A stretch of 64,000 bases of DNA from Propionicicella superfundia DSM 22317 (GTDB lineage Bacteria; Actinomycetota; Actinomycetes; Propionibacteriales; Propionibacteriaceae): contig NZ_KE384022.1 of the NCBI RefSeq assembly GCF_000423465.1, positions 186,001-250,000 of the forward strand, read 5' to 3'. Positions within the stretch are counted from its first letter, which is position 1, and each line of letters starts with the position of its first letter. The position numbers were made by a program, and so were the translations under genes. Below the pieces are notes generated by a model that did not search any database, was not told the DNA's origin, and worked only from the letters and a program-made list of their open reading frames with translations. Of the stretch, positions 13,786 to 41,442 are shown piece by piece.

Positions 13786-15783
13786 CTACCGGCGTGACGA
13801 CGGGGGCGTCCCGACCGCACCGGGGACGCGAGCCCGGTGGACGGTCGAACCGGTGGCGACGCCGGCCTCCGCCCCCGGCCGCGCGAGGGAGTACGGCTCG
13901 GCCGAGCGAAGCTGGTACGGCACGCTGGTCACCATCACGCCCGGCATGTACAGCAGGCGGCTCTTCAGCCGGAACGCGCTCTGGTTGTGCAGCAGTGCCT
14001 CCCACCACCGTCCGACGACGTACTCGGGGATGAACACCTCGACCACGTCCCGCTCCCCGATGCGGATCCGCCTCAGGTGGTCCAGCACGGGCTGGGTGAG
14101 ATCGCGGTACTCCGACGCGACGATCGTGAGGGGGACGGGGATGTCGCGTGCCGCCCAGTCCTCCTGCAAGAGCTGCGTCCGCCGCGCGTTGATGTCGACC
14201 CGCAACGCGGTGATGGTGCTCGGCCTCATCGCGCGGGCGAACGCCAGGGCCTTGAGCGCCGGCTCGTTGAGCTGGCTGACGAGCACGATCGCGTGGACAC
14301 GGCTCGGCAGGGTGATGCCGGCCGCCTTCGGCCGCAACTGTCGTGTGACCCGCATGTAGTGGCGATGGATGCGGTGCATGACGAACACCAGCACGGGGAT
14401 GGCGATGACCACCAGGTAGGCACCGTGCGTGAACTTGGTGAACAGGACGATGACGAGGACGGCGGCGGTGGCGACCGCGCCCAGCGCGTTGACCAGGGTC
14501 GATCCCACGATCCTCGGCGACCAGCCTTCGGTCGCGGCGTGACGCCGCCAGTACCGCACCATGCCGGTCTGGCTCAAGGTGAACGAGACGAACACGCCCA
14601 GGATGTAGAGCTGGATGAGCCGGGTCACCGAGCCGTCGAAGATGACGATGAGCGCGGCGGCGACGCCGGCCAGGATGAGGATGCCGTTGGAGAACACGAG
14701 GCGGTCGCCGCGGCGGCCGAGCTGCTTGGGCAGGTACCGGTCCTGGGCGAGGATCGACGCGAGGACCGGGAACCCGTTGAAGGCGGTGTTGGCGGCCATC
14801 GCCAGGATCAGCGTCGTGAACCCCTGCACGACGAAGAAGAGCACCGAGTTATTGCCGAACACGGCCGCGGCGAGCTGCGCCAGCACGGTGCGCTGCTCGT
14901 ATCCCGCCGGAGTACCCACGAGCTCGGCCGGATTCTCGGCCATGTGGACATGGGAGATCGTGCTCAGCACCGCGATCCCACCCATCATGCCGATGCTCAG
15001 CACCGCCATCAGCAGCAGGGTCAGGGCGGCGTTGTGGGATTTCGGCTCGCGGAACGTGGGGACCCCGTTGCTGACGGCCTCCACACCGGTCAGCGACGTG
15101 CACCCCGACGCGAACGCCCGCAGCAGCAGCAGAAGCAGGGCGGCGCCGGCGGGGCTGGTCGGCGCGAGGGAGAACGCCGCCGACTCGGCGACCGGAGCGG
15201 TGCCCGTCGCGACCTTCCAGAACCCGACGGCGAGCATGGCGTACACGCTGACGACGAAGCCGTAGGTGGGAATCGCGAACAGCGTCCCGGACTCCCGGAC
15301 GCCGCGCAGGTTCATGAGCGTGAGGACGGCGATGAACCCGAGGCACAGCGGCACGGTGCGGGGACCGAGGCCGGGAAAGGCCGACACCAGATTCTGGACA
15401 CTGGCCGCGACGGACACCGCGACGGTCATCACATAGTCGACCATGAGTGCGGCGGCAGCCACGAGGGACGCGTTGCGGCCGAGGTTGGCGCGGCTCACGG
15501 CGTAGGCGCCCCCGCCGTCGGGATAGGCGTGACAGGTCTGCCGGTAGCTGATCGTGACGAGCGCGAGCAGAGCCACCACGGCGAGCGCGATCCACGGTGT
15601 GAGGAGCACCGCGGCCGTTCCGCCGAGCGCGAGCACGAGGATGATCTCCTGTGTCGCGTACGCGTTGGACGAGATCGGATCGGAACAGTACACCGGCAGC
15701 GCCAGTCGCTTCGGCAGGAGCGTCTGGTGCATCTGGTCGGACCGCATCGGGTTGCCCACGAGGATCCGCTTGGGGACGCGCAT
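13786..15783 (-). CDS. kimA: KimA-like high-affinity potassium transporter (APC superfamily)
   Basis: A 665-residue protein with about 12 transmembrane helices (roughly 30-480) and a cytoplasmic C-terminal domain. Blocks matching Bacillus KimA as I recall it include SSNAYATQEIILVLAL, SYRQTCHAYPDGGGAY, GCTSLTGVEAVSNGVP, VVQGFTTLILAMAANT and near the end LHNQSAFRLKSRLL. KimA imports K+ with protons and is inhibited by c-di-AMP in Firmicutes. The start is ATG at 15783 with a weak GGTGAG ribosome site. The following gene is the Kdp-like sensor kinase, which supports a potassium role. The last 40 residues are low-complexity. The alternative reading is a general amino acid permease; the C-terminal match argues against it. 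Confidence 0.82.
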   Translation of the reverse strand: MRVPKRILVGNPMRSDQMHQTLLPKRLALPVYCSDPISSNAYATQEIILVLALGGTAAVLLTPWIALAVVALLALVTISYRQTCHAYPDGGGAYAVSRANLGRNASLVAAAALMVDYVMTVAVSVAASVQNLVSAFPGLGPRTVPLCLGFIAVLTLMNLRGVRESGTLFAIPTYGFVVSVYAMLAVGFWKVATGTAPVAESAAFSLAPTSPAGAALLLLLLRAFASGCTSLTGVEAVSNGVPTFREPKSHNAALTLLLMAVLSIGMMGGIAVLSTISHVHMAENPAELVGTPAGYEQRTVLAQLAAAVFGNNSVLFFVVQGFTTLILAMAANTAFNGFPVLASILAQDRYLPKQLGRRGDRLVFSNGILILAGVAAALIVIFDGSVTRLIQLYILGVFVSFTLSQTGMVRYWRRHAATEGWSPRIVGSTLVNALGAVATAAVLVIVLFTKFTHGAYLVVIAIPVLVFVMHRIHRHYMRVTRQLRPKAAGITLPSRVHAIVLVSQLNEPALKALAFARAMRPSTITALRVDINARRTQLLQEDWAARDIPVPLTIVASEYRDLTQPVLDHLRRIRIGERDVVEVFIPEYVVGRWWEALLHNQSAFRLKSRLLYMPGVMVTSVPYQLRSAEPYSLARPGAEAGVATGSTVHRARVPGAVGTPPSSRR

Positions 15784-15831
15784 GCTGCTCACCGGACCAT
15801 CACAACGCGCGACGGCTGTCACGGCCCGATT

Positions 15832-15881
15832 CTTGACGGGTCCTTTGCGCCGTCCGGGCCGACCTTGACGCGTCCTTGACG
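15832..15881 (-). promoter_or_regulatory. Three CGTCAAG direct repeats upstream of kimA
   Basis: On the minus strand CGTCAAG occurs at 15881-15875, 15870-15864 and 15838-15832, giving start-to-start spacings of 11 and 32 bp. OmpR-family regulators bind direct repeats spaced by about one helical turn, so this could be the operator for the KdpE-type regulator. The repeats fill the 106-bp gap between hemL and kimA. No consensus promoter is obvious. Confidence 0.45.
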
Positions 15882-15889
15882 GCCCTGCC

Positions 15890-17215
15890 TCAGCGCGTCG
15901 CGGACGCCGCCGCGCGAGCCGCCGCCGGGAGGGCGTCGACGATCCTCGACAGCGCCGCATCGTCGTGCGCCGCCGACAGGAACCACGCCTCGAACACGCT
16001 CGGCGGGAGGGCGACGCCGGCATCCAGCATCGCGTGGAAGAACGGCGGATAGCGGAAGGTCTCCTGGGCCAGCGCCTCGTCGTACGTCCGGACGCCGTGA
16101 TCGGCGGCCTCCGGACCGAAGAACACGCTGAACAGACTCGACGCCGACTGGACGCGATGCGGGACGCCGGCCGCATCGAGCGCCTCCGTGACGGCCGCCC
16201 GCAGCGTCGCCGACGCGGCGTCCACATGCCGGTAGACGGCGTCGTCGGCCAGCCGGAGCGTGGCGATCCCCGCGGCCGTCGCCAGCGGATTCCCCGACAG
16301 CGTGCCCGCCTGGTAGACGGGCCCGACAGGCGCCAGGAGGTCCATCAGCTCGGCAGGCCCGCCCAGCGCGGCCAGCGGCATGCCGCCGCCCACCACCTTG
16401 CCGAACGTCACGAGATCCGGGACGTAGGCGGCCGTGGCACCGGCCTCGACCCCCCACCACCCCGAAGGCCCGACCCGGAACCCCGTGAGCACCTCGTCGG
16501 ACACCATGAGCGCGCCGTGTTCGCGGGTCAGACGGCGGATCGCCGCGTTGAAGCCCTCGTCGGGCGGGACGACCCCCATGTTGGCCGGGGCCGCCTCGGT
16601 GATCACGCAGGCGATCTCGGCTCCGCGGGCCGCGAACGCCTCTTCCAGCGCGGCGACGTCGTTGTACGGCAGGACGAGCGTGTCCGCGGCCGCCGCCCTG
16701 GTCACCCCGGACGACCCCGGCAGGCCCGCCGTCGCCACCCCCGACCCCGCGGCGGCGAGCAGCGCGTCGCTGTGCCCGTGGTAGCAGCCCGCGAACTTCA
16801 CGATGACATCGCGCCCCGTGGCCCCACGGGCGAGCCGAAGCGCGGTCATCGTCGCCTCGGTGCCGGTCGACACGAAACGCACCTTGTCGCAGAACGGCAT
16901 CCGGTCGCGGATCGCCGCGGCCAGGTCGACCTCGGCCGTGGTGGGTGCGCCGAAGCTGAGGCCGCGCGCCGCGGCGTCGGTCACCGCCGCCACGACGGCG
17001 GGATGCGCATGCCCCAGCAGCGCGGGACCCCAGGAACAGACCAGGTCCACGTACTCGCGACCCTCGATGTCGACGACGTACGGCCCACGGGCCGACGCCA
17101 GGAACACCGGCGTCCCGCCCACCGCGCCGAAGGCACGCACCGGCGAGCTCACACCGCCCGGGATCACGGCGCACGCCTGCGCGTAGACCTCCTCCATGCT
17201 GAGCCGGCTCGCCAT
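15890..17215 (-). CDS. hemL: Glutamate-1-semialdehyde 2,1-aminomutase
   Basis: A 441-residue PLP enzyme that isomerises glutamate-1-semialdehyde to 5-aminolevulinate in the C5 haem pathway. Diagnostic stretches are [15 protein letters not shown] at the N-terminus, [42 protein letters not shown] lysine K273 in [11 protein letters not shown], and [12 protein letters not shown]. The start at 17215 lies two bases after the hemB stop region; a longer in-frame start would run into hemB. It is the last gene of the hemE-hemCD-hemB-hemL operon. Its partner HemA is encoded divergently at 21078. Confidence 0.95.
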
Positions 17216-28265: not shown

Positions 28266-29567
28266 ATGGCAAAGAGATGGACTCCGGAGCGTGTGATCGC
28301 CCTGGCGCCCGACTCCGCCTCCGAGGTCGCCGGCCGTCGGCTGGCCGTCCCCGCGCCGTGGTCCGACGTGGGGTGGGCCGATCCGCTGCTCTGGGGAGCG
28401 TGCCAGGGTTCCGGCAAGACTCCCTACACCGTCGCGGTCGATGTCTCCGGACCCACGTACCGCTGCTCCTGCCCGTCCCGCAAGTTCCCCTGCAAGCATG
28501 TCCTCGGGCTGCTGTTCCTCTGGGCCGAGGGCGGCATCCGCGAAGGCGGCACGCTCAGTGCGTTCGCCTCCGACTGGGCGGCGCGACGTGGCCGCGGCGG
28601 GAGCGCCGCCGACGGCTCCGGCAGCCCGCAGGCCGCCGAACGAACCCCGGAACAGGAGGCCGCCGCGGCAGCCCGAGCCGCCCGCCGCGAGGAACGCGTC
28701 GCCGACGGCATGGCCGAGCTCGAGCAGTGGTTGTCCGACCAGGTCACCCGTGGCCTCGCCGCCGCCCGCCCGGCCGAGGCGACCGAGACGGCCGCTCGCA
28801 TGGTGGACGCCCAGGCGCCCGGGGTCGCCACCCGGCTGCGGGAGGCCGCACGCCTTCCGCGGGGCGGACGGTGGCTGACGGACACCTTCGCCGCCTACTC
28901 GCTGCTGCACCTGCTGGCCCGCGCCGCCACGACCCTCGACACCGCGGATCCCATGCGCGACACCGTCCGGATGCGACTGGGCTTCACGACCTCCCGCGAG
29001 ACGGTGCTGGCCGAGCCCGCGGTGACCGACCGGTGGCTCGTCGCCGGCATGCGGGACTCCGACGAGGAGCAGGTCAGCGTACGCCGTGTCTGGCTCCACG
29101 GCATGGACACCGGGACGCCCGCGCTCGTGCTGTTCTTCGCCCCGCGCGGCCAGGCCCTGGCGAACCCGCTGCTCCCCGGGACGGCCGTCGACGCCGACCT
29201 CCACTTCCACCCGGGCCGGCCGCGGCTGCGGGCGGTCGTCGGCGACCAGCGCGACACCGTCCCGATCCGCGGGTGGACACCGGCCGTCACCGGCGTCGCC
29301 GTGGCCGTGGCGGCGTGGCGAGCGGCGCTCGCTGCGGACCCGTGGCTCACCGAGTGGCCGGTCGCCGTCTCCGGCACCGCCGCGCCGGCCGGGCGGCAAT
29401 GGACGTTCACCGGCATCGACGGGGGCGCCGTGAACCTCGTCGGGTCCGACCTGTGGACACTGCTCGCACTGACCGGTGGCCACCCGGCGACGGTCTTCGG
29501 CGAGCTCGGCGCCGAGGGCCTGCGCCCGAGCTCCGTCCTCCTCGACGAGGAGGTGCTCCCGCTGTGA
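28266..29567 (+). CDS. SWIM zinc-finger protein
   Basis: A 433-residue cytoplasmic protein. A SWIM zinc finger of form CxCx6CxH lies near the N-terminus (C67, C69, C76, H78 in YRCSCPSRKFPCKH); such fingers bind DNA or proteins. The rest has no motif I recognise; an Ala/Arg-rich stretch at about 98-150 looks helical and flexible. It is the first gene of six consecutive same-strand genes, with a leaderless-type start and a GTGA overlap with the next gene. SWIM proteins are frequent companions of MoxR/VWA loci, where they may act as nucleic-acid or target adaptors; that function is inferred. Confidence 0.85.
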   Translation: MAKRWTPERVIALAPDSASEVAGRRLAVPAPWSDVGWADPLLWGACQGSGKTPYTVAVDVSGPTYRCSCPSRKFPCKHVLGLLFLWAEGGIREGGTLSAFASDWAARRGRGGSAADGSGSPQAAERTPEQEAAAAARAARREERVADGMAELEQWLSDQVTRGLAAARPAEATETAARMVDAQAPGVATRLREAARLPRGGRWLTDTFAAYSLLHLLARAATTLDTADPMRDTVRMRLGFTTSRETVLAEPAVTDRWLVAGMRDSDEEQVSVRRVWLHGMDTGTPALVLFFAPRGQALANPLLPGTAVDADLHFHPGRPRLRAVVGDQRDTVPIRGWTPAVTGVAVAVAAWRAALAADPWLTEWPVAVSGTAAPAGRQWTFTGIDGGAVNLVGSDLWTLLALTGGHPATVFGELGAEGLRPSSVLLDEEVLPL

Positions 29568-31054
29568 CCGCGCTCGACGAGCTCTCCGCCGTGGCCGCCG
29601 TCGGCACGGGCCGGCGCTCGACCCTCCCGGCCGTCCCCCAGGTCGCCGGGGTCCTCCCGTCGCGAAACCCCGAGGAACGGGCGTTCGCGCTGTTGGACGC
29701 GGGCGCCGCGCTCGCCGTCGTGGCCAAGGGAGCGGTGGAGGTCCCGCCCGGGTCCCCGCTCGCCCCCGCCCCTCCCGACGCCTGGCCGGATCCGCCCGCC
29801 GCCTTCACCGCCGCGCTGAGGCAGCTCGGCTCCGACGGCGGTCCGGTCGCCGACGCCGCGAGCCGGTCCGCCGTGCTGGTGGAGGCCTTCGGCTGGATGG
29901 CCGCGCGACGGCTCCGGCTGTCGCACCGCCTCCTGCCGACCTTTCTCACCCACCCGTCCGCCGACGTACGCGCCGGCGTCGTCCCGGTTCTCGGGGAGCG
30001 CGGCCGGTGGCTCGTGTCGGTTCCCGGGGCACCCGGCGCCCCGGACGATCGCCGCATCGCGGACGACCCCTGGGAGCACGGGACCCCGGCCGAGCAGGTC
30101 GCCCACCTGACCCTCGTGAGAAGCACGGATCCAGCGGCCGGGCTGCGGCTCGTCACCGGGATCTGGAGCACGACGCCGGCGGCGACCCGCGCGCAGTTCG
30201 CGCTCGTGATCGCCGACACGGCCGGTCCGGCCGACGAGGACTTCCTGGAGAGCTGCCTGTCCGACCGCTCCGCCGCCGTCCGCGCCGTCGCCCCGCAGGG
30301 GCTGGTGCGGCTGCCCGGGTCCGCCTACGTGTCCCGTATGACCGCCCGCGCCGCCGACGTGTTCCGGTCGGCCGCTCCGGGCATGGTCGTCACGTCACCG
30401 GCGCCCGACGAACACGATCAGCTCGGCGCCGCCCTGTCCGCCCAGGAGCGGATCACCCGCCTTCTGGGCGCCGTCCCGCCGGGCGCCTGGCCGGGTCTCA
30501 CCGGCATCACCGCCTCCGACCTGCTGCGCGTGGCGCACGCCGATCCCGCGCTGGATCTGCGGCCGGGGCTCACGACCAGCGCCCTCCGCCACGGCGACGC
30601 GGCGCTCGCCGCCGCTCTCGTCGAGGCCGGCGCCGTCCACGAGGGCTTCGCCCCGTTCGTCCCGGTCGACCGGCTCGCCGCGGCCCTGGACCGGCTCGGC
30701 GCCGCCGCCGCCGCGCCCGACTCCGGCGGCAGCAGCCTGCTCGAACGCCTGCCCCGCCCGTGGCCCGACCCCATCGCCCGCGTCGTGCTCGCCCGACTCG
30801 ACGCCTCGCTGCCGACCGCGCGACGGTTCCCGGACTCGGTGTGGCGCCTCCTCGCACTGGCGACCCCGGCATCGTCCGCCGACGCCTGGGCGGCCCAGCT
30901 CCGCGCCGCGACCATCGGGCACGGCGCACGCACCCGCTCCAATCGCACGGTGCTCATGGCGGCCGCGATCCTCACCGTCCGCGGCGCGCTCTGGCGCGCG
31001 CTGCCCCCCGCCACCGATCCGCACGCCCACCACGTCCCCGGGAGCCCGCCATGA
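29564..31054 (+). CDS. DUF5691-type protein of a MoxR/VWA locus
   Basis: A 496-residue, Ala/Leu-rich soluble protein without transmembrane segments. I place it with DUF5691 by genomic context and by HEAT-like helical stretches such as HRLLPTFLTHPSADVRAG and FLESCLSDRSAAVRAVAPQG, which read like pairs of antiparallel helices. No catalytic motif is visible. The GTG start overlaps the SWIM gene stop (GTGA), and its stop overlaps the MoxR ATG (ATGA). A scaffold or substrate-binding role for the ATPase is plausible but unproven. Confidence 0.7.
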   Translation: MTALDELSAVAAVGTGRRSTLPAVPQVAGVLPSRNPEERAFALLDAGAALAVVAKGAVEVPPGSPLAPAPPDAWPDPPAAFTAALRQLGSDGGPVADAASRSAVLVEAFGWMAARRLRLSHRLLPTFLTHPSADVRAGVVPVLGERGRWLVSVPGAPGAPDDRRIADDPWEHGTPAEQVAHLTLVRSTDPAAGLRLVTGIWSTTPAATRAQFALVIADTAGPADEDFLESCLSDRSAAVRAVAPQGLVRLPGSAYVSRMTARAADVFRSAAPGMVVTSPAPDEHDQLGAALSAQERITRLLGAVPPGAWPGLTGITASDLLRVAHADPALDLRPGLTTSALRHGDAALAAALVEAGAVHEGFAPFVPVDRLAAALDRLGAAAAAPDSGGSSLLERLPRPWPDPIARVVLARLDASLPTARRFPDSVWRLLALATPASSADAWAAQLRAATIGHGARTRSNRTVLMAAAILTVRGALWRALPPATDPHAHHVPGSPP

Positions 31055-32145
31055 CCGACACCGCCGCCGCGCTGCAGCGACCCCACGCCGAGCAGCTCTT
31101 CGCCGCCGAGCTCGCCGCGCTCGCGGCCGCCGACGACCGTCCCCGCCCTCCGCAATGGCGCCTGTCCCCGTGGGCGGTGGTGACGTACCTGATGGGCGGC
31201 ACCCTGCCGGGCGGCGAGGTCGTGACCCCGAAGTACGTCGGCAGCCGGCGACTCATCGAGACGGCCGTCGCGACCGTCGCCACCGACCGCGCCCTCCTCC
31301 TGCTCGGCGTCCCCGGCACGGCGAAGTCGTGGGTGTCCGAACACCTCGCCGCCGCGATCTCGGGCGACTCGACCCTGCTCGTCCAGGGAACCGCGGGAAC
31401 GGCCGAGGAGGCGGTCCGGTACGGCTGGAACTACGCACGGCTGCTGGCCGAGGGACCGAGCCCGGCAGCGCTCGTGCCGTCACCGGTCATGGTTGCGATG
31501 GAGAAGGGGGCGATCGCACGGATCGAGGAGCTGACCCGGATGCCGTCCGACGTGCAGGACGCCCTCATCACCGTGCTGTCCGAGAAGTCGCTGCCGGTGC
31601 CCGAACTCACGTCCGAGGTGCAGGCGCGGCGCGGGTTCAACGTGGTCGCCACGGCCAACGACCGAGACCGCGGAGTGAACGACCTGTCGAGCGCGCTGCG
31701 CCGCCGGTTCAACACGGTCGTCCTCCCGGTGCCCGCCACGACCGAGGACGAGGTGCACATCGTCACCAGCAGGGTGGCTGAACTCGGCCGCGCCCTCGAC
31801 CTGCCGCCCGCCGACGGCGCCGATCACGAGATCCGGCGGGTGGTGACGATCTTCCGCGAGCTGCGCCGTGGCGTCACCGAGGACGGCAGAACGTCCCTCA
31901 AGACGCCGTCCGGCACGCTGTCGGTGGCCGAGGCCATCTCGGTCGTCACCAGCGGGCTCGCACTCGCCGCGCACTTCGGCGACGGGGTGCTGCGCGCGGG
32001 CGACGTGGCCGCGGGCATCCGCGGATCGGTCGTGAGGGACCCGGTCGGGGACGCGACCGTATGGTCGGAGTACCTGGAGACGGTCGTCCGCGAACGTCGC
32101 GACTGGAGCGACTTCTATCGCGCTGCCCGAGAGCTTGGGGACTGA
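31051..32145 (+). CDS. MoxR-family AAA+ ATPase
   Basis: A 364-residue AAA+ protein. Walker A is GVPGTAKS (86-93), the Walker B region is AIARIEELTRMP with E159/E160, sensor 1 is VVATANDRD, and an arginine finger cluster reads LRRRFN at about 226-231. MoxR proteins act as chaperones that insert metals or remodel complexes together with VWA-domain partners; the VWA gene is three genes downstream. In Walker B the usual Asp is replaced by Glu, so the ARIEEL wording is slightly atypical. Overlapping start/stop with the DUF5691 gene means coupled translation. Confidence 0.9.
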   Translation: MTDTAAALQRPHAEQLFAAELAALAAADDRPRPPQWRLSPWAVVTYLMGGTLPGGEVVTPKYVGSRRLIETAVATVATDRALLLLGVPGTAKSWVSEHLAAAISGDSTLLVQGTAGTAEEAVRYGWNYARLLAEGPSPAALVPSPVMVAMEKGAIARIEELTRMPSDVQDALITVLSEKSLPVPELTSEVQARRGFNVVATANDRDRGVNDLSSALRRRFNTVVLPVPATTEDEVHIVTSRVAELGRALDLPPADGADHEIRRVVTIFRELRRGVTEDGRTSLKTPSGTLSVAEAISVVTSGLALAAHFGDGVLRAGDVAAGIRGSVVRDPVGDATVWSEYLETVVRERRDWSDFYRAARELGD

Positions 32146-32154
32146 CTGCCTGTG

Positions 32155-34431
32155 ATGACCGACGAAGGCCGCGTGCGGGTGCTCGGCATCCGCCACCACG
32201 GCAGCGGATCCGCCCGCGCCGTGCGGGACGCCCTCACCGAACACGATCCGGGAGTCGTCCTCATCGAGGGCCCGCCGGAGGCCGATGCCCTCGTCGGCTG
32301 GATCGCCCGGGGGCTGAAGCCGCCCGTCGCCCTGCTCGCCTACGAGGTCGCCGATCCCGCCCGGGCCGCCTTCTGGCCGTTCGCGGTGTTCTCACCCGAA
32401 TGGCAGGCCCTCTCCTGGGCCGTGGAGAACCACCGGGAGGTGAGGTTCATCGACCTGCCGGCCGCGGTGACCCTCGCGACCGCCGGCGATCCCTCCGCCG
32501 GGGAGCAGACTCGCGGTCCCCGGAGCGAGGAGCCCGACGAGACGACGGAGCCGCCGTTCGCCGCGTCGCCACGATGCGCCGCGACCGATCCGTTGCGCGA
32601 CGACCCGCTGGCCGTGCTCGCACGGACGGCCGGCTACGACGACCCGGAGCGCTGGTGGGAGGACGCCGTCGAGACGCAGGCCAGCAGTTCCCTGTTCACC
32701 TCCATCACCGAGGCGATGGCCGAACTGCGGACCGCGACTCCCCCACCGGCCGAGACGGAGGACCAGCTCGTCGAGGAACGCCGCGAGGCGCACATGCGCA
32801 AGCTGCTCCGCGCGGCGCTGCGGATCCACGACCGGGTCGCGGTGGTCTGCGGCGCCTGGCACGCGCCCGCACTGTCCGGGCGGCTCCCGGCGGCGGCGGC
32901 CGATCAGAGGCTGCTGACCGGACTGCCGAAGGTGAAGGTCGCGACCGCCTGGGTGCCGTGGACGCATTCGCGCCTCACCTACGCCTCGGGCTACGGCGCC
33001 GGCATCGCCTCCCCCGGCTGGTACCGGCACCTGTTCGCCGCACCCGACGCGGTCGTCCCGCGCTGGTTCGCGGCCGTGGCCGCGGTGCTGCGCCGCCACG
33101 ATCTGCCGGTGTCGCCCGCGCACGCCATCGAGGCCACCCGGCTGGCCGAGGCGCTGGCCGCGCTCCGCGGCCGACCGCGAGCCGGCCTCGACGAGGTCCA
33201 GGAAGCGGCGCTGGCGGTGATGTGCGACGGCAATCCGACGACGCTGGCCTACGTCACGCGCGAGCTCGTCGTCGGCGAGGAGCTCGGCACCGTTCCCGAC
33301 GGCGCACCGCTCGTTCCGCTGGACGCCGACCTGCGCCGCCACGCGAAATCCCTGCGGCTGACGCTCGCACCGGCTCCCAAGGACCTCGTTCTCGACCTGC
33401 GCCGCACCTTCGACCGGGAGCGGTCCCGGCTGCTGCACCGGTTGCGCGCTCTCGACATCGACTGGGGCACGCCCGTCCAGGTGGCCGGGACCGGCACGTT
33501 CAAGGAGGCGTGGCAGGTGGCGTGGTCGCCCGACTTCGCCGTCGCCATCGTCCTCGCCTCGTCCTGGGGGACGACCGTCGCCGGGGCCGCCGCAGCTCGG
33601 CTCGTCGCCGATCCGGGGCCGCTGCCCGACGTGACCGCACGCGTGGAGCAGGCGCTGCTCGGGGAACTGCACACCGCTCTGCCGCCGCTCCTGACCGCCC
33701 TGGACGAGCGGGCCGCGCACGACGCGGACGTCGCCCACCTCCTCGATGCCCTGCCCGCCCTCATCCGTGCGCAGCGGTACGGCACGGTCCGCGGCACCGA
33801 CACGACCTCTCTCGGAGCCGTCGCTCACGCCATGCTGACCCGTGCGGCGGCGGGGCTCCCCGCGGCGGCAGGCGGCCTCTCCCCCGACGCGGCCACGGAG
33901 CTGTGCGGGTACATCGAGCGCGTGACCGACGTGGTCGGCATGCTCCCCGCCGCTGCGGGAGCCCTGTGGCACGACGCGCTGCGACGGGTGCTCGCGCGCG
34001 GGGACGTGCCCGGCCTGCTCGCCGGCCGGCTCACCCGCACCCTTCTCGACGCGGGCGACCTGCCCGCCGACGCGGCGAGGGACGCCCTGTCCAGGGCACT
34101 CACGCACGGTCCCACCGTGGCCGAGCGCGCGGCCTTCGCCGAGGGATTCCTGTCGGCGTCGGCGCTGCTCCTCATCCACGACCCGGAGGTGCTGGCCATC
34201 GTGGACGACTGGATGGCCGGTCTCGCCGACGACGACTTCCTGGAAGTGCTGCCCGTGCTGCGACGAGCGTTCGGCGGGTTCAACCGGCCCGAGCGCACCG
34301 CCATCGCCGAACGGGCCACCCGGCTGAGCGATCACGAGACCGCCGCGGCCACGCCCACCGACCTGCCGTACGCCGAGATGGCGGAGGCACTCGCCACGGT
34401 CCGCCACCTGCTGAGGAGGAAGGATGCCTGA
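32155..34431 (+). CDS. DUF5682-type protein, putative metal-dependent enzyme
   Basis: A protein of about 758 residues whose N-terminus is strongly patterned: VLGIRHHGSGSAR (H14, H15), VVLIEGPPEAD (E38, E42), then REAHMRKLLRAAL and VAVVCGAWHAPAL. Paired His, acidic residues after a beta-strand and a late GxWH motif recall the EreA/TraB/TIKI hydrolase superfamily, but I cannot prove homology. The C-terminal half is helical and Ala/Leu-rich. GTG at 32152 directly precedes the chosen ATG at 32155; neither has a good ribosome site. It follows the MoxR ATPase by 9 bp and overlaps the next gene by 8 bp. Confidence 0.72.
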   Translation: MTDEGRVRVLGIRHHGSGSARAVRDALTEHDPGVVLIEGPPEADALVGWIARGLKPPVALLAYEVADPARAAFWPFAVFSPEWQALSWAVENHREVRFIDLPAAVTLATAGDPSAGEQTRGPRSEEPDETTEPPFAASPRCAATDPLRDDPLAVLARTAGYDDPERWWEDAVETQASSSLFTSITEAMAELRTATPPPAETEDQLVEERREAHMRKLLRAALRIHDRVAVVCGAWHAPALSGRLPAAAADQRLLTGLPKVKVATAWVPWTHSRLTYASGYGAGIASPGWYRHLFAAPDAVVPRWFAAVAAVLRRHDLPVSPAHAIEATRLAEALAALRGRPRAGLDEVQEAALAVMCDGNPTTLAYVTRELVVGEELGTVPDGAPLVPLDADLRRHAKSLRLTLAPAPKDLVLDLRRTFDRERSRLLHRLRALDIDWGTPVQVAGTGTFKEAWQVAWSPDFAVAIVLASSWGTTVAGAAAARLVADPGPLPDVTARVEQALLGELHTALPPLLTALDERAAHDADVAHLLDALPALIRAQRYGTVRGTDTTSLGAVAHAMLTRAAAGLPAAAGGLSPDAATELCGYIERVTDVVGMLPAAAGALWHDALRRVLARGDVPGLLAGRLTRTLLDAGDLPADAARDALSRALTHGPTVAERAAFAEGFLSASALLLIHDPEVLAIVDDWMAGLADDDFLEVLPVLRRAFGGFNRPERTAIAERATRLSDHETAAATPTDLPYAEMAEALATVRHLLRRKDA

Positions 34432-35629
34432 CCGCTCCCCCGTCGTCCTGGACCCGATCGAACAGCGGGTCCTCGGGAGCCTGCTCGAGAAGCAGATCAC
34501 CGTTCCCGCGTCCTATCCGCTGAGCCTCACTGCGCTGCGCACCGCGTGCAATCAGGCCACGAGCCGCGAGCCGGTCACCGCCTATGACGACGACGCGCTC
34601 GTCGAGGCCGTGGACCGCCTCAAACAGCGGGGTCTGGCCCGCGTCGTGTGGGCGGGCAGCGGCTCGCGCGTCCTGAAGTACCACCAACTGCTCACCGACG
34701 TCCTCGAGCTGGAGCCGGCCGGGCGAGCCCTCGTCACGGTGCTGCTGCTGCGCGGACCCCAGTCGGCGGGCGAGCTGCGCACCCGCACGGAGCGGCTGCA
34801 TCCGTTCGCCGACAAGTCGGCCGTCGAGGAGGCGCTGCGCGAGCTCGCCGGGCGGCCGGTTCCGATCGTCCGCGAGGCCGGTCGTCGGCCGGGCCGGCAC
34901 GACGCCCGCTGGATCCACCTGCTCGGTCCCGTCGACGCCGAGGACGCCGCGCCGGCCGCGGACGTGGACCGGGAGTCCGTCCTCGCCGCCGGGGCGGAAC
35001 GACGCGACGAGGGCGTGCGGACGGCCTACGACGCGCTGGCCGAGGCGCCGGGCGCGATCGGGCCCGATCTCGCCGGCCTGCCGCTGGACCGGTGGCTGCT
35101 CGATCGGGTGTCGGCTGCCGCCGGAGGAGGGCCCGTGGCCGATCTCGGGTGCGGCCGGGGCCGCACGACCGCGTATCTGACGGAAGCGGGCGTCGACGTC
35201 GTCGGCAGCGACATGTCCCCCGCGACGATCGCCGCGGCGCGCGCCGACCATCCCGGTGTGTCGTTCGAGGTGGGCGACTTCGGCCGGCTGCTGCGCCCGC
35301 GGGCCGCAGCCGGGTGGGCCGCGATCACGGCCTGGTACGCGTTCGTCCATCTCGCCCCGTCCGAGCTCGCCGCGCTGCTGCCGGCGCTGGTCGCCACGCT
35401 CGTCCCCGGGGGCGTCCTCGCGTTCGCCGTCCAGCTCGGAGCCGAGGTGCGCAATGTCGCCCTCCCCGGCGACGCGGGTCGCGTGGACGTCGTGCTGTTC
35501 GACCGTGCACAGGTGCTGGCCGCGGTCACGGCGGCCGGAGGGATCGACGTCGAATGGTACGTGCGGGGCCCGGTCGGCGACGAGGACGCCGGTGACCGGC
35601 TCTACGTGTACGCCCGGAGCGGCGCGTGA
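34424..35629 (+). CDS. YceH-like DUF480 domain fused to a class I methyltransferase
   Basis: A 401-residue fusion. Residues 1 to about 165 match YceH (DUF480, two winged-helix units): RVLGSLLEKQITVPASYPLS, ACNQATSREP, VLLLRGPQSAGELRTRTERL and DARWIHLLGP. Residues from about 200 are a SAM-dependent Rossmann methyltransferase with motif I VADLGCGRGRTTAYL (about 238-252), DVVGSDMSP and a motif IV region AAITAWYAFVHL. The start ATG at 34424 has GAGGAGGAAGG upstream, overlaps the DUF5682 gene by 8 bp, and the stop overlaps the VWA start. The methylated substrate is unknown. Confidence 0.85.
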   Translation: MPDRSPVVLDPIEQRVLGSLLEKQITVPASYPLSLTALRTACNQATSREPVTAYDDDALVEAVDRLKQRGLARVVWAGSGSRVLKYHQLLTDVLELEPAGRALVTVLLLRGPQSAGELRTRTERLHPFADKSAVEEALRELAGRPVPIVREAGRRPGRHDARWIHLLGPVDAEDAAPAADVDRESVLAAGAERRDEGVRTAYDALAEAPGAIGPDLAGLPLDRWLLDRVSAAAGGGPVADLGCGRGRTTAYLTEAGVDVVGSDMSPATIAAARADHPGVSFEVGDFGRLLRPRAAAGWAAITAWYAFVHLAPSELAALLPALVATLVPGGVLAFAVQLGAEVRNVALPGDAGRVDVVLFDRAQVLAAVTAAGGIDVEWYVRGPVGDEDAGDRLYVYARSGA

Positions 35630-36822
35630 CGCGCGCACCCGATGCCGTGACCACCGAGCGTGCACGCCGGTGGCGGCTGGTGCTCGGCCGTCCGCCCTCC
35701 GAGGACGGCCCGGTCCTCGACGCCCGGGATCGTGCCATGGACGCGGCGCTCGCGGCGCTGTACGACAACGAGGCGACCGGGAAGCCCGGCGAGAAGGACC
35801 GGATCCTCGTCGGGATGGGTTCCTCGGCACCCCGCGTCGCGTCGTGGCTCGGTGACATCCGGAAGTTCTTCCCCAGCAGCGTCGTCCAGGTCATGCAGGC
35901 CGATGCGATCGAGCGGCTCGGGTTGAAGCGACTCCTGCTGGAGCCGGAGATGATGCGCACGGTCACCCCCGACGTCCACCTTGTGGCGACGCTGGTGGAG
36001 CTGCGGGCACTGATGCCGCAGCAGGCACGTGCGACGGCCCGGGCGGTCGTCGGGCAGGTCGTCGAGGAGGTCGAGCGGCGGCTGGCCGACCGGATCCGCA
36101 CGGCGACCCGAGGGGCGCTCAACCGGACCCGGCGGACGTCCCGGCCGCGCCCCGGCGACATCGACTGGAACCGCACGATCCGCGCGAACCTGAAGAACTA
36201 CCAGCAGCAGTACAACACCGTGATCGCGGAGCGGCTCGTGGGGTACGGACGCCGGCGCACGGGATTCGCCCGCGAGATCGTGCTGTGCGTGGACCAGTCC
36301 GGGTCGATGGCGACGTCGGTCGTGTACGCGTCGATCTTCGCATGCGTCCTCGCCTCGATCCGTGCCCTGCGCACGAGCCTCGTCGTGTACGACACCGCCG
36401 TCGTCGACCTGACGGATCAGCTCGCCGACCCCGTCGACGTCATCTTCGGCACCCAACTGGGCGGCGGGAACGACACCCCACGGGCCCTGGCCTACTGCGA
36501 GCGCCTCGTGACGCGACCCTCCGACACCGTGCTCGTCCTCATCAGCGACCTGTACGAGGGAGCGGGCTCGGAGGAGATGATCGGGCGCCTGGGCGCACTC
36601 CACGCCGACGGGGTCACGGTGGTCGTGCTGCTGGCGCTGGACGACGACGGCAAGCCGTCCTACGACCGGGACAACGCGGCCGCGCTCGCTGCCCTCGGCA
36701 TCCCGTGCTTCGCGTGTACGCCCGATGCGTTCCCCGACCTCATCGCGACCGCGCTCGGTCGCGCGGATGTCGCCGCGTGGGCCGCTCGGCGCGACGCCGA
36801 GCACGCATCGCGCCGGGACTGA
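35626..36822 (+). CDS. VWA-domain protein, partner of the MoxR ATPase
   Basis: A 398-residue soluble protein. The N-terminal 200 residues are helical and basic (RTRRTSRPRPGD near 158-168). The VWA domain from about 215 has an intact metal-ion-dependent adhesion site: DQSGS (D223, S225, S227), T274 in GGNDTPRAL and D298 in LVLISDLYEG. Such proteins hold a metal to bind partner proteins and present substrates to MoxR ATPases. The GTG start overlaps the preceding stop (GTGA). It is the last gene of the six-gene operon; no terminator is evident before lrp at 36857. Confidence 0.88.
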   Translation: MTRAPDAVTTERARRWRLVLGRPPSEDGPVLDARDRAMDAALAALYDNEATGKPGEKDRILVGMGSSAPRVASWLGDIRKFFPSSVVQVMQADAIERLGLKRLLLEPEMMRTVTPDVHLVATLVELRALMPQQARATARAVVGQVVEEVERRLADRIRTATRGALNRTRRTSRPRPGDIDWNRTIRANLKNYQQQYNTVIAERLVGYGRRRTGFAREIVLCVDQSGSMATSVVYASIFACVLASIRALRTSLVVYDTAVVDLTDQLADPVDVIFGTQLGGGNDTPRALAYCERLVTRPSDTVLVLISDLYEGAGSEEMIGRLGALHADGVTVVVLLALDDDGKPSYDRDNAAALAALGIPCFACTPDAFPDLIATALGRADVAAWAARRDAEHASRRD

Positions 36823-36856: not shown

Positions 36857-37312
36857 ATGGACGAGACAGATGCGGTCATTCTCCGGCGGCTGCTGGCCGA
36901 CGGCCGGGCGACCCTGGGCACGCTCGCCGAGGCGACCGGGCTCTCCGTGTCCGCTGCCCAGAGCCGCGTCCGGCGGCTGGAGGAGCGCGGCCTGATCACC
37001 GGCTACCGCGCGCAGGTGGATGCCGAGGCGGTCGGCCTTCCGCTGTCGGCCTTCATCGAGGTGACGCCGCTCGATGCGGACGATCCCGACGACATCCCGC
37101 AGCGCCTGGGGCATCTCGCGGAGATCGAGGGGTGCTTCTCGGTCGCCGGGGACGCGTCCTACATCCTGTTCGTTCGGGTGGCGAGCCCGAAGCGGCTGGA
37201 GGACCTCATCCGCCAGATCCGCCAGGCGGCCCATGTCAGCACGCGGACGACGGTCGTGCTGCAGACCTGCTTCGCCGACCGGCCGCCCGCAATAAATGTG
37301 AAGACCGTGTAA
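36857..37312 (+). CDS. Lrp/AsnC-family transcriptional regulator
   Basis: A 151-residue regulator. The N-terminal helix-turn-helix reads DAVILRRLLADGRATLGTLA followed by GLSVSAAQSRVRRLEERGLITGY in part; the C-terminal RAM effector domain ends with VSTRTTVVLQTCF. Lrp/AsnC proteins bind an amino acid and act as octamers or dimers. Its position 52 bp before the lysine 6-aminotransferase gene, same strand, makes lysine or a lysine product the probable effector. The start is ATG at 36857, leaderless type. Confidence 0.9.
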   Translation: MDETDAVILRRLLADGRATLGTLAEATGLSVSAAQSRVRRLEERGLITGYRAQVDAEAVGLPLSAFIEVTPLDADDPDDIPQRLGHLAEIEGCFSVAGDASYILFVRVASPKRLEDLIRQIRQAAHVSTRTTVVLQTCFADRPPAINVKTV

Positions 37313-37317
37313 ACATT
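37295..37317 (+). promoter_or_regulatory. Candidate Lrp operator before the lysine aminotransferase gene
   Basis: AATGT (37295-37299) and ACATT (37313-37317) form an inverted repeat across the lrp stop codon, in a markedly A+T-rich stretch. Lrp sites are typically A+T-rich imperfect palindromes. This site would let the regulator control the downstream operon. Confidence 0.4.
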
Positions 37318-37364
37318 CCTGTCTCACCCTGCGCTCATCGGAACAAATCCGGCAGGCTTCAAGC

Positions 37365-38696
37365 ATGTCCACAATCATTCCACCCGCTCGGGTTCACGAG
37401 ACGCTCGCTCGGTCGATCCTCGCGGACGGCCTGCCGATCGTCCTGGATCTGGACGCCTCGTCGGGCAGCGATCTCGTGGATGCCCGGGACGGCAGCCACC
37501 ACATCGACCTGTTCAGCTTCTTCGCGTCCAACGCGCTCGGCCTGAACCATCCCGCGCTGCGGAATCCGCAGACGATGTCCCGGCTCGGCCGGATCGCGGT
37601 TCAGAAGCCCAGCAACTCCGACCTGTACACCGTCGAGCTGGCGGAGTTCGTGGCCACCTTCGCGCGGGTGCTCGGCGATCCGCGGCTGCCCCACCTGTTC
37701 TTCATCGAAGGCGGCGCGCTCGCCGTGGAGAACGCGCTCAAGGTCGCCTTCGACTACAAGAGCCGTCTCAACGAGTCCCGCGGCCTGTCGCCGGCGCTCG
37801 GCACGCGCATCATGCATCTCACAGACGCATTCCACGGCCGTTCCGGCTACACGCTGTCGCTCACCAACACCGATCCGAACAAGACGGCCCGCTTCCCCAC
37901 GTTCGACTGGCCGCGGATCACCTCGCCGTACCTCGGCACCCATGCGGACGGCACGCCACGGGATATCGCACGCCTGGAGGAACGAGCGCTCGCCGAGGCC
38001 GAGGCCGCCTTCGCCGCGCACGGGCCCGACATCGCCGCCTTCATCGCCGAGCCGATCCAGGGCGAGGGGGGCGACCATCACTTCCGGCCCGAGTTCCTGC
38101 AACGAATGCAGCGGCTGACCCATGATCACGACGCGCTGTTCATCATGGACGAGGTGCAGACCGGCGTCGGCATGACCGGCACGGCCTGGGCCTATCAGCA
38201 GCTCGGTCTGGAACCCGACGTGGTCGCGTTCGGGAAGAAGGCCCAGGTCTGTGGCGTCATGGCCGGAGGCCGGGTCGACGACATCCCCGACAACGTGTTC
38301 GCGGTGAGCTCCCGCATCAACTCAACCTGGGGCGGGAACCTGACCGACATGGTGCGAGCCCGGATCATCCTCGAGACCATCGAGTCGGACCACCTCATCG
38401 ACCACGCGGCCGAGACCGGGGACTGGCTGCTGGCCCGGCTGGAGGAGCTCGCGCTCCGGCACCCGCTCGTCACCGATCCGCGCGGCCGTGGCCTCATGTG
38501 CGCCTTCAGCCTGCCGGACACGGCGACCCGCGACGAGGTGCTGCGCCGGCTCACCGACAGGCGTGTGCTCCTGCTGGGATGCGGACGCCGCTCGGTGCGG
38601 TTCCGCCCGGCACTGACCATTGAGCGGGCCGAGCTGGCCCAGGCGCTGGACATCCTCGCGACGGTCCTCGCCGATGTGACTCGGAAGGCGGCGTGA
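37365..38696 (+). CDS. lat: L-lysine 6-aminotransferase
   Basis: A 443-residue class III PLP aminotransferase. The wording is typical of Lat: DLFSFFASNALGLNHPAL, FFIEGGALAVENALKVAFDY in part, DAFHGRSGYTLSLTNTDPNK, MDEVQTGVGMTGTAW, and the PLP lysine in VVAFGKKAQVCGVMAGGR. It transfers the epsilon-amino group of lysine to 2-oxoglutarate, giving 2-aminoadipate semialdehyde, which cyclises to piperideine-6-carboxylate. The downstream dehydrogenase (start overlaps the stop) removes that product. In this context the purpose is lysine catabolism; no beta-lactam genes are nearby. Confidence 0.92.
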   Translation: MSTIIPPARVHETLARSILADGLPIVLDLDASSGSDLVDARDGSHHIDLFSFFASNALGLNHPALRNPQTMSRLGRIAVQKPSNSDLYTVELAEFVATFARVLGDPRLPHLFFIEGGALAVENALKVAFDYKSRLNESRGLSPALGTRIMHLTDAFHGRSGYTLSLTNTDPNKTARFPTFDWPRITSPYLGTHADGTPRDIARLEERALAEAEAAFAAHGPDIAAFIAEPIQGEGGDHHFRPEFLQRMQRLTHDHDALFIMDEVQTGVGMTGTAWAYQQLGLEPDVVAFGKKAQVCGVMAGGRVDDIPDNVFAVSSRINSTWGGNLTDMVRARIILETIESDHLIDHAAETGDWLLARLEELALRHPLVTDPRGRGLMCAFSLPDTATRDEVLRRLTDRRVLLLGCGRRSVRFRPALTIERAELAQALDILATVLADVTRKAA

Positions 38697-40207
38697 TGAC
38701 CACTCCCGACGACCTGCGCGCGCTCGCCCGGGACCGGCTCGCCGCACTCGGCGTGGTCCTCCCCGCCCCCGGCGCCGAGGACCTGACCGCGCCGTCCGCG
38801 CTCAGCGCCGAACCGCTCGGCAGCCTGCCCGCGACGACCGAGCTGGACGGTGTGCTGGACGGCGCACGGGAGGCGTTCCTGGCCTGGCGAGAGGTCCCCG
38901 CGCCGGTGCGCGGCCACCTGGTCCGTCGCTACGGCGAGCTGCTCCGCGAGCACAAGAGCCTGCTGGCCGACCTCGTCACGCTGGAGACCGGCAAGATCAC
39001 CAGCGAGGCCCGCGGCGAGGTGCAGGAGATGATCGACGTCTGCGACTACGCCGTCGGCCTCTCCCGCCAGCTCTGGGGGAAGACGATCGCCAGCGAGCGA
39101 CCCGGGCACCGGCTGGCCGAGACCTGGCACCCGCTGGGCGTCGTGGGGATCATCTCGGCCTTCAACTTCCCCGTCGCCGTCTGGGCATGGAACGCCGCGA
39201 TCGCCCTCGTGTGCGGCGATCCCGTGGTCTGGAAGCCGTCCGAGCACGCGTCCCTGAGCGCGATGGGGGCCGCGGCGCTGCTGCAGACCGCCGTGACCGA
39301 GCTCGGTCATCCCTCGGCGGTGTCCCAGGTCGTCCTGGGAGACGCCCGCACCGGTGAGGCTCTGGTCGACGACCCGCGCGTCGCGCTCATCAGCGCGACC
39401 GGGTCGGTGCGGATGGGCCGCGCCGTCGGGCCGCGCGTCGCGGCGCGCTTCGGACGGAGCCTGCTGGAGCTCGGTGGCAACAACGCGGCGGTCGTCACGC
39501 CGTCGGCACCCCTGGAGCTCGCCATTCGCGGCGTCGTCTTCGCCGCAGCGGGCACGGCCGGGCAGCGCTGCACGACGCTGCGCCGGCTGATCGTCCACCG
39601 CAGTCTGGTCGACGAGGTCGGCCGGCGACTCGTCCGCGCGTACCGCAGTCTTCCCATCGGGGATCCGTTCGCGTCGTCGACTCTCGTCGGGCCCCTGCTC
39701 AACGCCGCCTCCGGCACCGCGTTCGAGGCGGCCGTCGCCCAGGCGGTGGCCGAGGGCGGGACAGTGCTCACCGGCGGGCGCCTCGTCGACGTGACGGGCT
39801 GCGGCGGCACGTTCGCCGAGCCGACCGTCATCGCCATGCCGGGCCAGACTCCGATCGTCCACGAGGAGACCTTCGCCCCGATCCTCTATCTGCTGGCCTA
39901 CGACGACTTCGACGAGGCCATCGAGCTCAACAACGCCGTCGTCCAGGGGCTCTCGGCCTCGGTCTTCACGCGCGACCAGGCCGAGGCGGAACGATTCGTC
40001 TCGGCCGCCGGCGCCGACACAGGGATCGCCAACGTCAACATCGGCACGTCCGGTGCCGAGATCGGCGGCGCCTTCGGCGGGGAGAAGGCGACAGGCGGCG
40101 GCCGCGAGTCGGGCTCGGACTCCTGGCATGCGTACATGCGGCAGGCGACGAACACGATCAACTACTCCGATGCCCTGCCCCTCGCCCAGGGCGTGAGCTT
40201 CGGGTGA
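38696..40207 (+). CDS. pcd: Aminoadipate-semialdehyde / piperideine-6-carboxylate dehydrogenase
   Basis: A 503-residue ALDH7-type NAD-dependent aldehyde dehydrogenase. GIISAFNFPVAVWAWN, VWKPSEHASL, the catalytic Glu in LELGGNNAAVV and the nucleophile Cys in GTAGQRCTTLRRL are visible. It converts aminoadipate semialdehyde (open form of piperideine-6-carboxylate) to 2-aminoadipate. The ATG at 38696 shares an A with the lat stop and has GGAAGG 7 nt upstream; a GTG one codon earlier is possible. It overlaps the MFS gene by four bases, so lat-pcd-MFS is one operon. Confidence 0.92.
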   Translation: MTTPDDLRALARDRLAALGVVLPAPGAEDLTAPSALSAEPLGSLPATTELDGVLDGAREAFLAWREVPAPVRGHLVRRYGELLREHKSLLADLVTLETGKITSEARGEVQEMIDVCDYAVGLSRQLWGKTIASERPGHRLAETWHPLGVVGIISAFNFPVAVWAWNAAIALVCGDPVVWKPSEHASLSAMGAAALLQTAVTELGHPSAVSQVVLGDARTGEALVDDPRVALISATGSVRMGRAVGPRVAARFGRSLLELGGNNAAVVTPSAPLELAIRGVVFAAAGTAGQRCTTLRRLIVHRSLVDEVGRRLVRAYRSLPIGDPFASSTLVGPLLNAASGTAFEAAVAQAVAEGGTVLTGGRLVDVTGCGGTFAEPTVIAMPGQTPIVHEETFAPILYLLAYDDFDEAIELNNAVVQGLSASVFTRDQAEAERFVSAAGADTGIANVNIGTSGAEIGGAFGGEKATGGGRESGSDSWHAYMRQATNTINYSDALPLAQGVSFG

Positions 40208-41442
40208 CACGGCGGGGCCGGGACGTCGGCGATCCCGAGTACCGCCGCATCGCCGTGGCCCTGTTCGCCGCCGGATTCGCCACGTTCGCCCTCGTCTTCG
40301 ACGCGCAGGCCGCCCTGCCGGCGATCGGCGCCGCCTTCGAGGTGCCCTCGGCGACGGCGGCGCTCACCGTGTCCGCGACGACCCTGGGGCTGGCCGCATC
40401 GGTTCTTCCGTGGTCCTGGGTCGCGGACCGGGCCGGGCGGCTGGTCGCGATGCGGGTGAGCCTCGCCGCGGCGCTGCTGGTGTCGTTCGGCCAGCTCGCC
40501 GCCGTCGAGCTGTGGCAGGTGATCGCCGTCCGTGCCCTTCTGGGCGTCGCACTGGGCGCCGTCCCGGGGGTGGCCATGGCCTACCTGGCCGAGGAGCTGG
40601 CGCCGGCACGGGTGTCCATCGCGGCCGGCGTCTTCGTCGCGGGCAACACGGTCGGCGGCATCGTCGGGCGGATCGTGGCCGGGCTGGCCTCGGCGGAGTG
40701 GGGCTGGCGTGCAGGATTCGCCCTCGTCTCCCTGATCGCCGTCGCGATGGCGGCCTGGTTCCTGCTCGCGGCGCCCTCGCCGCGCGGGTTCGTGCCCCGC
40801 CCCGTGCCTGCTCGGCTGGTCTGGGCGCGGGCCCTCTTCCAGGTGCGCGACCCGACCATGCTGGCGCTGTACGCCCAGGGGCTGTTCCTGATGGGATCGT
40901 TCGGCGCCGTGTACAACTATCTCGGCTTCCGTCTGATGGCGGCGCCGTTCGGTCTCCCCGCGACCTGGGCGAGCCTGGTGTTCACCGCCTATCTCGCCGG
41001 GACCGCGGCCAGCCGCTGGTGCGGGATCCTCGCGCGGCGCTGGGGGCATCTGCGCGTCATGCTGGCCGGGATCGGGACGATGGTCTGCGGCGCGGTCATG
41101 ATGGTGGGCCCGTGGCTGTGGCTGGTGCTGACCGGGCTCGTCGTGTTCACCGTCGGCTGCTTCACCGCCCACCCGCTGGCCAGCGGCCTCACCGGACAGC
41201 GCGCCCAGGTGGGGCGCGCCCAGGGCAGCGCCCTGTACCAACTGTCCTGGCTCGGAGGCACGGCGCTGTTCGGCTGGCTGGGCGGAGTGTGCTACGACCG
41301 CTGGGGATGGGCCGCGACCGTCGCGATGGTCGCGGCGCTGTGCCTGGCCGCGGCGGCCTCGGCGATCGCCGGGCTGCACCTGCTGTCCCGCCGGCGTCCG
41401 GCACCGGCGCGGCACCTCGCCGAACTCGTCGTCCAGGACTGA
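40204..41442 (+). CDS. MFS transporter, YnfM-type, in the lysine operon
   Basis: A 412-residue carrier with 12 hydrophobic segments. The loop between helices 2 and 3 reads WVADRAGRLVAMR, close to the MFS GxxxDRxGRR signature, and SWVADRAGR identifies the YnfM-like subgroup. GTG at 40204 overlaps the dehydrogenase stop. Co-transcription with lat and pcd suggests transport of lysine, aminoadipate or a related compound, but MFS substrate cannot be read from sequence. Confidence 0.85.
   Translation: MTRRGRDVGDPEYRRIAVALFAAGFATFALVFDAQAALPAIGAAFEVPSATAALTVSATTLGLAASVLPWSWVADRAGRLVAMRVSLAAALLVSFGQLAAVELWQVIAVRALLGVALGAVPGVAMAYLAEELAPARVSIAAGVFVAGNTVGGIVGRIVAGLASAEWGWRAGFALVSLIAVAMAAWFLLAAPSPRGFVPRPVPARLVWARALFQVRDPTMLALYAQGLFLMGSFGAVYNYLGFRLMAAPFGLPATWASLVFTAYLAGTAASRWCGILARRWGHLRVMLAGIGTMVCGAVMMVGPWLWLVLTGLVVFTVGCFTAHPLASGLTGQRAQVGRAQGSALYQLSWLGGTALFGWLGGVCYDRWGWAATVAMVAALCLAAAASAIAGLHLLSRRRPAPARHLAELVVQD

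Follow-up and report, generated by a model that had tools for sequence, protein, structure and literature searches.

A YehL-type MoxR/VWA operon of Propionicicella superfundia and its DUF5682 subunit, a probable TIKI/TraB-type hydrolase

A window of 64,000 nucleotides from the genome of Propionicicella superfundia DSM 22317 (contig NZ_KE384022.1, forward strand positions 186,001 to 250,000) was analysed, and attention was given to an operon of six genes at positions 28266-36822 of this window. The genes encode, in this order, a SWIM zinc-finger protein, a DUF5691 protein, a MoxR ATPase, a DUF5682 protein, a fusion of DUF480 with a methyltransferase, and a protein with a VWA domain (Table 1). 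The best-supported reading of five of the six genes was a YehL-type MoxR/VWA protein-remodelling machine. We further propose that this machine probably drives a TIKI-type hydrolase, the DUF5682 protein, and that a subunit combining SWIM and oligonucleotide/oligosaccharide-binding (OB) folds would anchor it to nucleic acid; the methyltransferase is best explained as a newcomer to the operon. The MoxR-VWA-DUF5682 neighbourhood was found across phyla; nearly every locus also had a SWIM protein, and most had DUF5691 or DUF4132.

The conservation of the neighbourhood was investigated in 142 loci, which comprised the window, the locus of Escherichia coli K-12 (L031), 60 chosen regions drawn from phylum- and family-wide DUF5682 matches, and the 80 top-ranking ones among 586 confirmed stretches. 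The presence of genes was scored with profiles built from the loci themselves. All loci were picked via DUF5682 and Actinomycetota were over-represented, which biases the resulting counts. MoxR, DUF5682 and VWA occurred together in 136 loci; the core was incomplete in L112 and in five loci cut by a contig end (L180, L193, L203, L210 and L211). A SWIM-type protein was recorded in 134 loci, being of the window type in 117 and of the YehQ type in 17, and all the latter had the C-x-C...C-x-H motif. Six of the eight loci without a SWIM-type protein (L102, L158, L165, L169, L193 and L203) ended at a contig border. DUF5691 was present in 117 loci and a DUF4132 (YehI-like) protein in 13, two of which also had DUF5691. 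The full set was found in cyanobacteria/Leptolyngbya (L171 and L181), in Bacteroidota (L187, L206 and L208) and in a planctomycete of the Isosphaeraceae (L204). It was concluded that the five families SWIM, DUF5691, MoxR, DUF5682 and VWA are clustered beyond chance and recur across phyla. The preliminary description of the operon had proposed a remodelling system of MoxR and VWA with partners of its own, and this proposal was backed by the conserved neighbourhood. The methyltransferase, which that description had counted as a sixth member, did not share in the conservation. The remaining neighbours, clustered when found in at least 6 loci (30 clusters listed), represented mostly lineage-bound synteny and antisense open reading frames.

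After short or cut sequences had been dropped, 137 MoxR, 135 VWA and 142 DUF5682 sequences were aligned. The window MoxR protein matched the E. coli YehL open reading frame at E=1.1e-70 in phmmer, and the system is, as judged from this match and the shared gene neighbourhood, of the YehL type and related to E. coli yehL-yehM-yehP-yehQ. The AAA+ motifs were intact, as described earlier, with GVPGTAK at residues 86-92 followed by E159, E160 and N203, the last three being identical in all 137 sequences. The acidic pair of Walker B was thus Glu-Glu (E159-E160) throughout, the usual pair being Asp-Glu. The VWA protein had been credited with a complete metal ion-dependent adhesion site, and this had to be corrected: D223-x-S225-x-S227 and D308 were kept, but the usual Thr position was occupied by Asn282. 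This position was Thr in 132 of the 135 sequences and Asn in three, namely the window, L095 and L096. The sequence GGGND was seen also in L118 and L119.

The E. coli cluster resembles the window in having homologous MoxR, DUF5682 and VWA genes together with a SWIM gene. It differs in the gene order, MoxR-DUF5682-VWA-SWIM, in a longer and divergent SWIM protein (YehQ), in the lack of the DUF480-methyltransferase, and in a DUF4132 protein (YehI) encoded upstream; DUF5691 was not detected there. The use of DUF4132 in place of DUF5691 belongs to this E. coli-like branch. A scaffold of helical repeats may also belong to the recurring partners, because one of three DUF4132 proteins scanned (L105) had a HEAT_2 match of 3.6e-8, above the cut-off, and DUF5691 had one of E=0.0042, below the Pfam cut-off. 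Other layouts were also observed. L118 and L119 had the order VWA-MoxR-DUF5682, a fourth arrangement. In a variant branch (L078, L080, L103 and L104) the DUF5682 and VWA regions lay within one open frame, and a protein of ~1,600 residues was encoded upstream, the L080 copy of which had no Pfam match.

The assignment of DUF5682 was based in part on its conserved residues. H14, H15, E38, D100, E173, R192, R210, E211, M214, G233 and H236 were invariant in all 142 sequences, some of them only 22-30% identical to that of the window. In nine TraB-family sequences, taken from three Bacteroidota genomes, G-T-x-H, Glu, Arg and G-x-x-H appeared in this order, which H14, E38, R210, G233 and H236 of DUF5682 follow; the spacing from His to Glu was 26 residues in TraB versus 24 in DUF5682. 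The TIKI/TraB/PrgY/Ere superfamily (EreA and ChaN included) shares with DUF5682 a His after strand 1, a Glu after strand 2 and, late in the core, an Arg and a Gly-x-x-His motif. DUF5682 is set apart from it by an added alpha-solenoid and by the link to a MoxR/VWA operon.

The profiles were compared with hhalign. Residues 1-275 of alignment A1, with insertions removed, scored 30.1 against TraB, a value reached by none of 200 controls (199 column shuffles and one reversal of the profile), for which the mean was 12.3 and the maximum 26.9. The four other core families of the operon scored 13.2-15.4 against TraB, and the accepted pair of TraB and erythromycin esterase (Ere) scored 15.4 in the same comparison. 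The stretch R210...H236 of DUF5682 was matched to exactly the Arg...His stretch of TraB and, with alignment A1, also to the Arg...His stretch of Ere. One of 12 DUF5682 members gave a Pfam match to ChaN/Tiki (E 0.05). The sole actinobacterial PF01963 match (L221) lacked both His motifs and was set aside as not useful.

Structures were predicted with AlphaFold from alignments A2 and A3 (58 and 42 sequences, respectively, both subsets of the available set). The DUF5682 model reached a mean predicted local distance difference test score (pLDDT) of 87.7 and a predicted template modelling score (pTM) of 0.83. In this model H14 was placed just past the strand 7-11, E38 past 34-37, D100 past 95-98 and H236 past 228-232, and the C-terminal half was largely helical. 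A protein of two parts was supported by the model, that is, a predicted TIKI/TraB-type hydrolase domain at the N-terminus (~1-275) and an alpha-solenoid at the C-terminus (~426-758). The top chain in VIA-align was 7w5z_E, with Z 9.7 at 4.5 Å for 189 residues over 1-247, while most other matches were helical repeats over ~426-758. The entry 7w5z is Tetrahymena complex IV, and a TraB-family protein is described among the subunits of ciliate complex IV in the accessible text of PMC10060162. In the Foldseek viral library a 'TraB family protein' from Marseillevirus LCMAC201 ranked first, with probability 1.00 and E 0.027. PDB chains named as TIKI proteins (ChaN, Ere and PMT) were absent from the best 50 matches of the structure searches; this excludes nothing, because those places were filled by helical repeats. 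Searches of PDB by sequence with DUF5682, single or as a profile, gave no match. Residues 318-356 of DUF5682 resembled AAA_lid_2 in one of 12 members (E 0.001, below the cut-off), a likeness that could hint at docking on MoxR and was not built upon.

The SWIM protein was modelled with a mean pLDDT of 92.1 as an N-terminal SWIM domain, a helical middle part and C-terminal tandem OB-like beta-barrels (~243-429). In VIA-align a chain of ZSWIM8 came first (residues 3-114, Z 8.8). Many OB-fold chains followed, mostly of Z 5-7 over ~243-429; among them were HIN domains and RPA70, of which both OB folds were covered (Z 5.9 for 166 residues). With the profile of this protein nothing credible was found in PDB by sequence. 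The model is suggestive of tandem OB-like folds at the C-terminus, and the protein plausibly binds nucleic acid. The CxCx6CxH finger noted previously was located as C67-x-C69-x6-C76-x-H78, and the nucleic-acid binding that had been ascribed to it gained plausibility from the OB-like folds in the model.

Several observations weighed against the proposed assignments. The hhalign probability for DUF5682 and TraB was 14% at best. With the larger, narrower alignment A2 the score against TraB was 24.0, and a different stretch was aligned to Ere; runs in the global mode aligned nothing sensible. The score against Ere, 19.4, was below the highest of the 200 controls (21.2). Foldseek gave no match below E 0.001 in the PDB and viral libraries. 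The Z of 9.7 for 7w5z_E was taken as modest support, because values of 7-8 are usual for the best match of a model without a clear relative. The chain letter of the TraB-family subunit was not confirmed, and 7w5z_E could not be named by sequence because neither a profile of TraB nor either of two individual TraB-family sequences gave a credible match in PDB. Further, DUF5682 lacked the second Glu that some TIKI enzymes carry in E-x-H, the positions two before H14 and H15 being I12 and R13. TIKI proteins have a core of parallel sheet and 2His/2Glu catalytic residues, according to the part of PMC6254334 at hand. Two His and one Glu of such a set were present in DUF5682, and the aligned TraB sequences also lacked the E-x-H Glu; for this reason, its absence was held to argue against a site of the Ere/RRSP type rather than of the TraB type. 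Among the other proteins, the OB-fold matches of the SWIM protein all stayed below Z 8, and the HEAT nature of DUF5691 was based on the sub-threshold match. MoxR was not detected in L112 though flanking DNA was included, and no protein with a SWIM motif was found among the open reading frames of the regions read for L118 and L119. With all of this considered, a TIKI/TraB fold of the N-terminal domain of DUF5682 was judged very likely, and the protein would probably be catalytic.

We propose that MoxR and its VWA co-chaperone would spend ATP on remodelling a client or DUF5682 itself, and that the client would be hydrolysed by DUF5682 at a peptide, ester or related bond. Recruitment of the machine to nucleic acid, or to a client bound to it, would fall to the SWIM-OB subunit, and DUF5691 would serve as a scaffold. 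It may be, though we regard this as tentative and rather doubtful, that the YehL systems, that of E. coli included, represent a new class of ATP-powered hydrolytic machines recruited by nucleic acid. In such a class a MoxR hexamer and a VWA adaptor would drive the TIKI/TraB-type hydrolase DUF5682, and a client on DNA or RNA, held by the SWIM and tandem-OB subunit, would be cut or deprotected.

Seven MoxR subfamilies, YehL among them, are named in the available text of PMC3893208, so that YehL as a subfamily was already known; what appears new by comparison with the literature is DUF5682/YehM as a likely TIKI/TraB-type enzyme. This assignment would give a concrete activity, and the residues H14, E38 and H236, to a machine of E. 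coli and of several phyla. No paper naming DUF5682 or DUF5691 was found, the coverage being thin on subscription journals and preprints, and no functional study of a YehL operon was among the matches listed in the literature search. The gene yehQ is among those mutated in butanol-selected strains (PMC6442406) and a yehM mutation occurred in copper-exposed populations (PMC12409786); as presented in the accessible parts of both papers, these mutations do not fix the yeh function.

Other functions were weighed against the proposed hydrolytic machine. DUF5682 could be a non-catalytic adaptor of TIKI-like fold within a plain MoxR/VWA maturation chaperone, like NorQ/NorD or RavA/ViaA, with cofactor insertion or complex assembly as its job. 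RavA-ViaA, NorQ-NorD and CoxD-CoxE combine a MoxR ATPase with a VWA co-chaperone as the window does, and the window VWA protein is CoxE-like in Pfam; we know of no DUF5682, SWIM or DUF5691 partners of these pairs. The pairs studied so far are maturation chaperones as far as PMC3893208 and PMC7159879 were available, and a TIKI-fold protein without catalytic residues is known from the accessible part of PMC6254334. However, the putative active-site residues of DUF5682 were kept without exception even at 22-30% identity, which would be unusual for a scaffold. Besides, no recurring client gene was recognised among the 30 neighbour clusters, few of which were identified. A maturation chaperone with a non-catalytic DUF5682 was considered unlikely.

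A role in biological conflict had also been suggested initially. In an anti-phage or anti-plasmid system of this kind, DUF5682 would be the effector and the SWIM-OB protein the nucleic-acid sensor. MoxR/VWA cores do serve in described conflict systems. Their ternary forms resemble the window operon in combining MoxR, VWA and a further conserved protein, but that protein is a VMAP, iSTAND, FtsH or beta-propeller component in the available part of PMC7159879, and it is DUF5682 in the window. A Pfam scan of the six proteins gave no VMAP, STAND, FtsH or propeller family, and the bpMoxR match was below the cut-off (23.4 versus 27 bits). TraB and YehL were not mentioned in the accessible portion of that survey. 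The patchy occurrence of DUF5682 (21 of 296 genomes across the phylum and 57 of 147 of the family) would suit a conflict system, as would its copies on plasmids. However, the latter were confined in tblastn to 36 of 72,556 plasmid records, a few or more of which were chromosome-sized, with 1 of 50,697 phage records matched. No variable effector module was seen, as judged from the families scored in the 142 loci and the listed neighbour clusters, and the same families recurred. A succinyl-CoA ligase-like gene (Pfam was run on one copy) was found near 18 Streptomyces-like loci, which points to a stable position in the chromosome. The only PADLOC defence call, a resemblance of the methyltransferase half to mad2 (E 2.1e-10), was rejected, since it concerned a generic methyltransferase region of a gene that is no member. 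The conflict role was weakened by these results to the point of being improbable.

The preliminary description had presented the methyltransferase as a member of the complex and as its modification arm. The DUF480-METHYLTRANSFERASE gene between DUF5682 and VWA was found in the window only, 1 of the 142 loci. Another match to the DUF480-methyltransferase profile, on an open reading frame downstream of the L163 operon and on the opposite strand (15643-15963, minus strand, 26 bits), was interpreted as either a generic methyltransferase or a chance match. Among the other loci having both genes, the nearest VWA start was at most 150 bases from the DUF5682 stop or overlapped it in 136 of 137, by a measure that favours near starts. 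L095 and L096, which share the Asn of the VWA site with the window, also lacked the methyltransferase in the operon.

Relatives of the fusion were found away from the operon. In a phylum-wide set of 198 genomes, the matches listed outside the own genome covered the DUF480 half (which we take to be of the E. coli YceH type) or the methyltransferase half only. Near-full-length relatives (at least 370 of 401 residues) occurred in 34 of 147 genomes of the family, the own one included. The 33 non-self relatives were 49-59% identical and all located elsewhere: DUF5682 was not matched in 12 of these genomes, and in the remaining 21 it was either 146 kb or more away from the fusion or on a different contig. 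The operon was read too in 15 of these 21 genomes and contained the fusion in none. It was concluded that the methyltransferase is not a conserved member, because it was absent from the 141 other loci and its relatives lay elsewhere in 33 genomes. The simplest account of these sequences would be a separate family gene that was relocated into the DUF5682-VWA junction in this lineage, after which start and stop codons came to overlap at both of its ends.

These overlaps are what speaks for one complex of six members, in which the DUF480-methyltransferase would modify targets found by the SWIM finger, and the operon copy was the single DUF480 gene found in the own genome, so it is possibly now co-expressed with the operon. 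Against the distribution described above, with the gene missing even from L095 and L096 and with relatives in genomes having no DUF5682 match, such a complex was considered very improbable. A tightly overlapping gene of an operon, as the DUF480-methyltransferase is, need not be a functional member.

The layout of the operon was checked at the level of open reading frames and codons, by which six co-directional genes on the plus strand with near-touching junctions were confirmed at the positions first assigned to them. The second gene starts with GTG 29564 overlapping the TGA that ends at 29567, and the third with ATG 31051 overlapping the TGA that ends at 31054. The MoxR gene runs to 32145, stop codon included, and the DUF5682 start follows as either GTG 32152 or ATG 32155. 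ATG 34424 of the methyltransferase lies inside the 3' end of DUF5682, whose stop ends at 34431, and GTG 35626 of VWA overlaps the stop ending at 35629; the VWA stop ends at 36822.

Table 1. Genes of the operon in the window and the families assigned to their products
Product	Position	Strand	Basis and remarks
SWIM zinc-finger protein, 433 aa	28266..29567	+	Pfam SWIM 1.9e-6; E. coli YehQ counterpart
DUF5691 protein, 496 aa	29564..31054	+	Pfam DUF5691 8.8e-64; possibly HEAT-like helical scaffold
YehL-type MoxR AAA+ ATPase, 364 aa	31051..32145	+	Pfam AAA_5 8.4e-37
DUF5682 protein, 758 or 759 aa	32152..34431	+	Pfam DUF5682 1.5e-244; YehM counterpart
DUF480-methyltransferase fusion	34424..35629	+	Pfam DUF480 1.4e-50 and Methyltransf_25 1.4e-13
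CoxE-like VWA protein, 398 aa	35626..36822	+	Pfam VWA_CoxE 2.1e-51; YehP counterpart

NCBIfam names were obtained below the cut-off only, for MoxR (MadB_ATPase and GvpN), the DUF480-methyltransferase and VWA, and were rejected. A regulator of the AsnC/Lrp type (Pfam) begins 35 bases past the VWA stop. The open reading frames 3' of it, named by eye, resembled an aminotransferase, an aldehyde dehydrogenase and a transporter of the major facilitator superfamily, and the region 36857-41442 of the window is possibly a lysine-degradation cluster.

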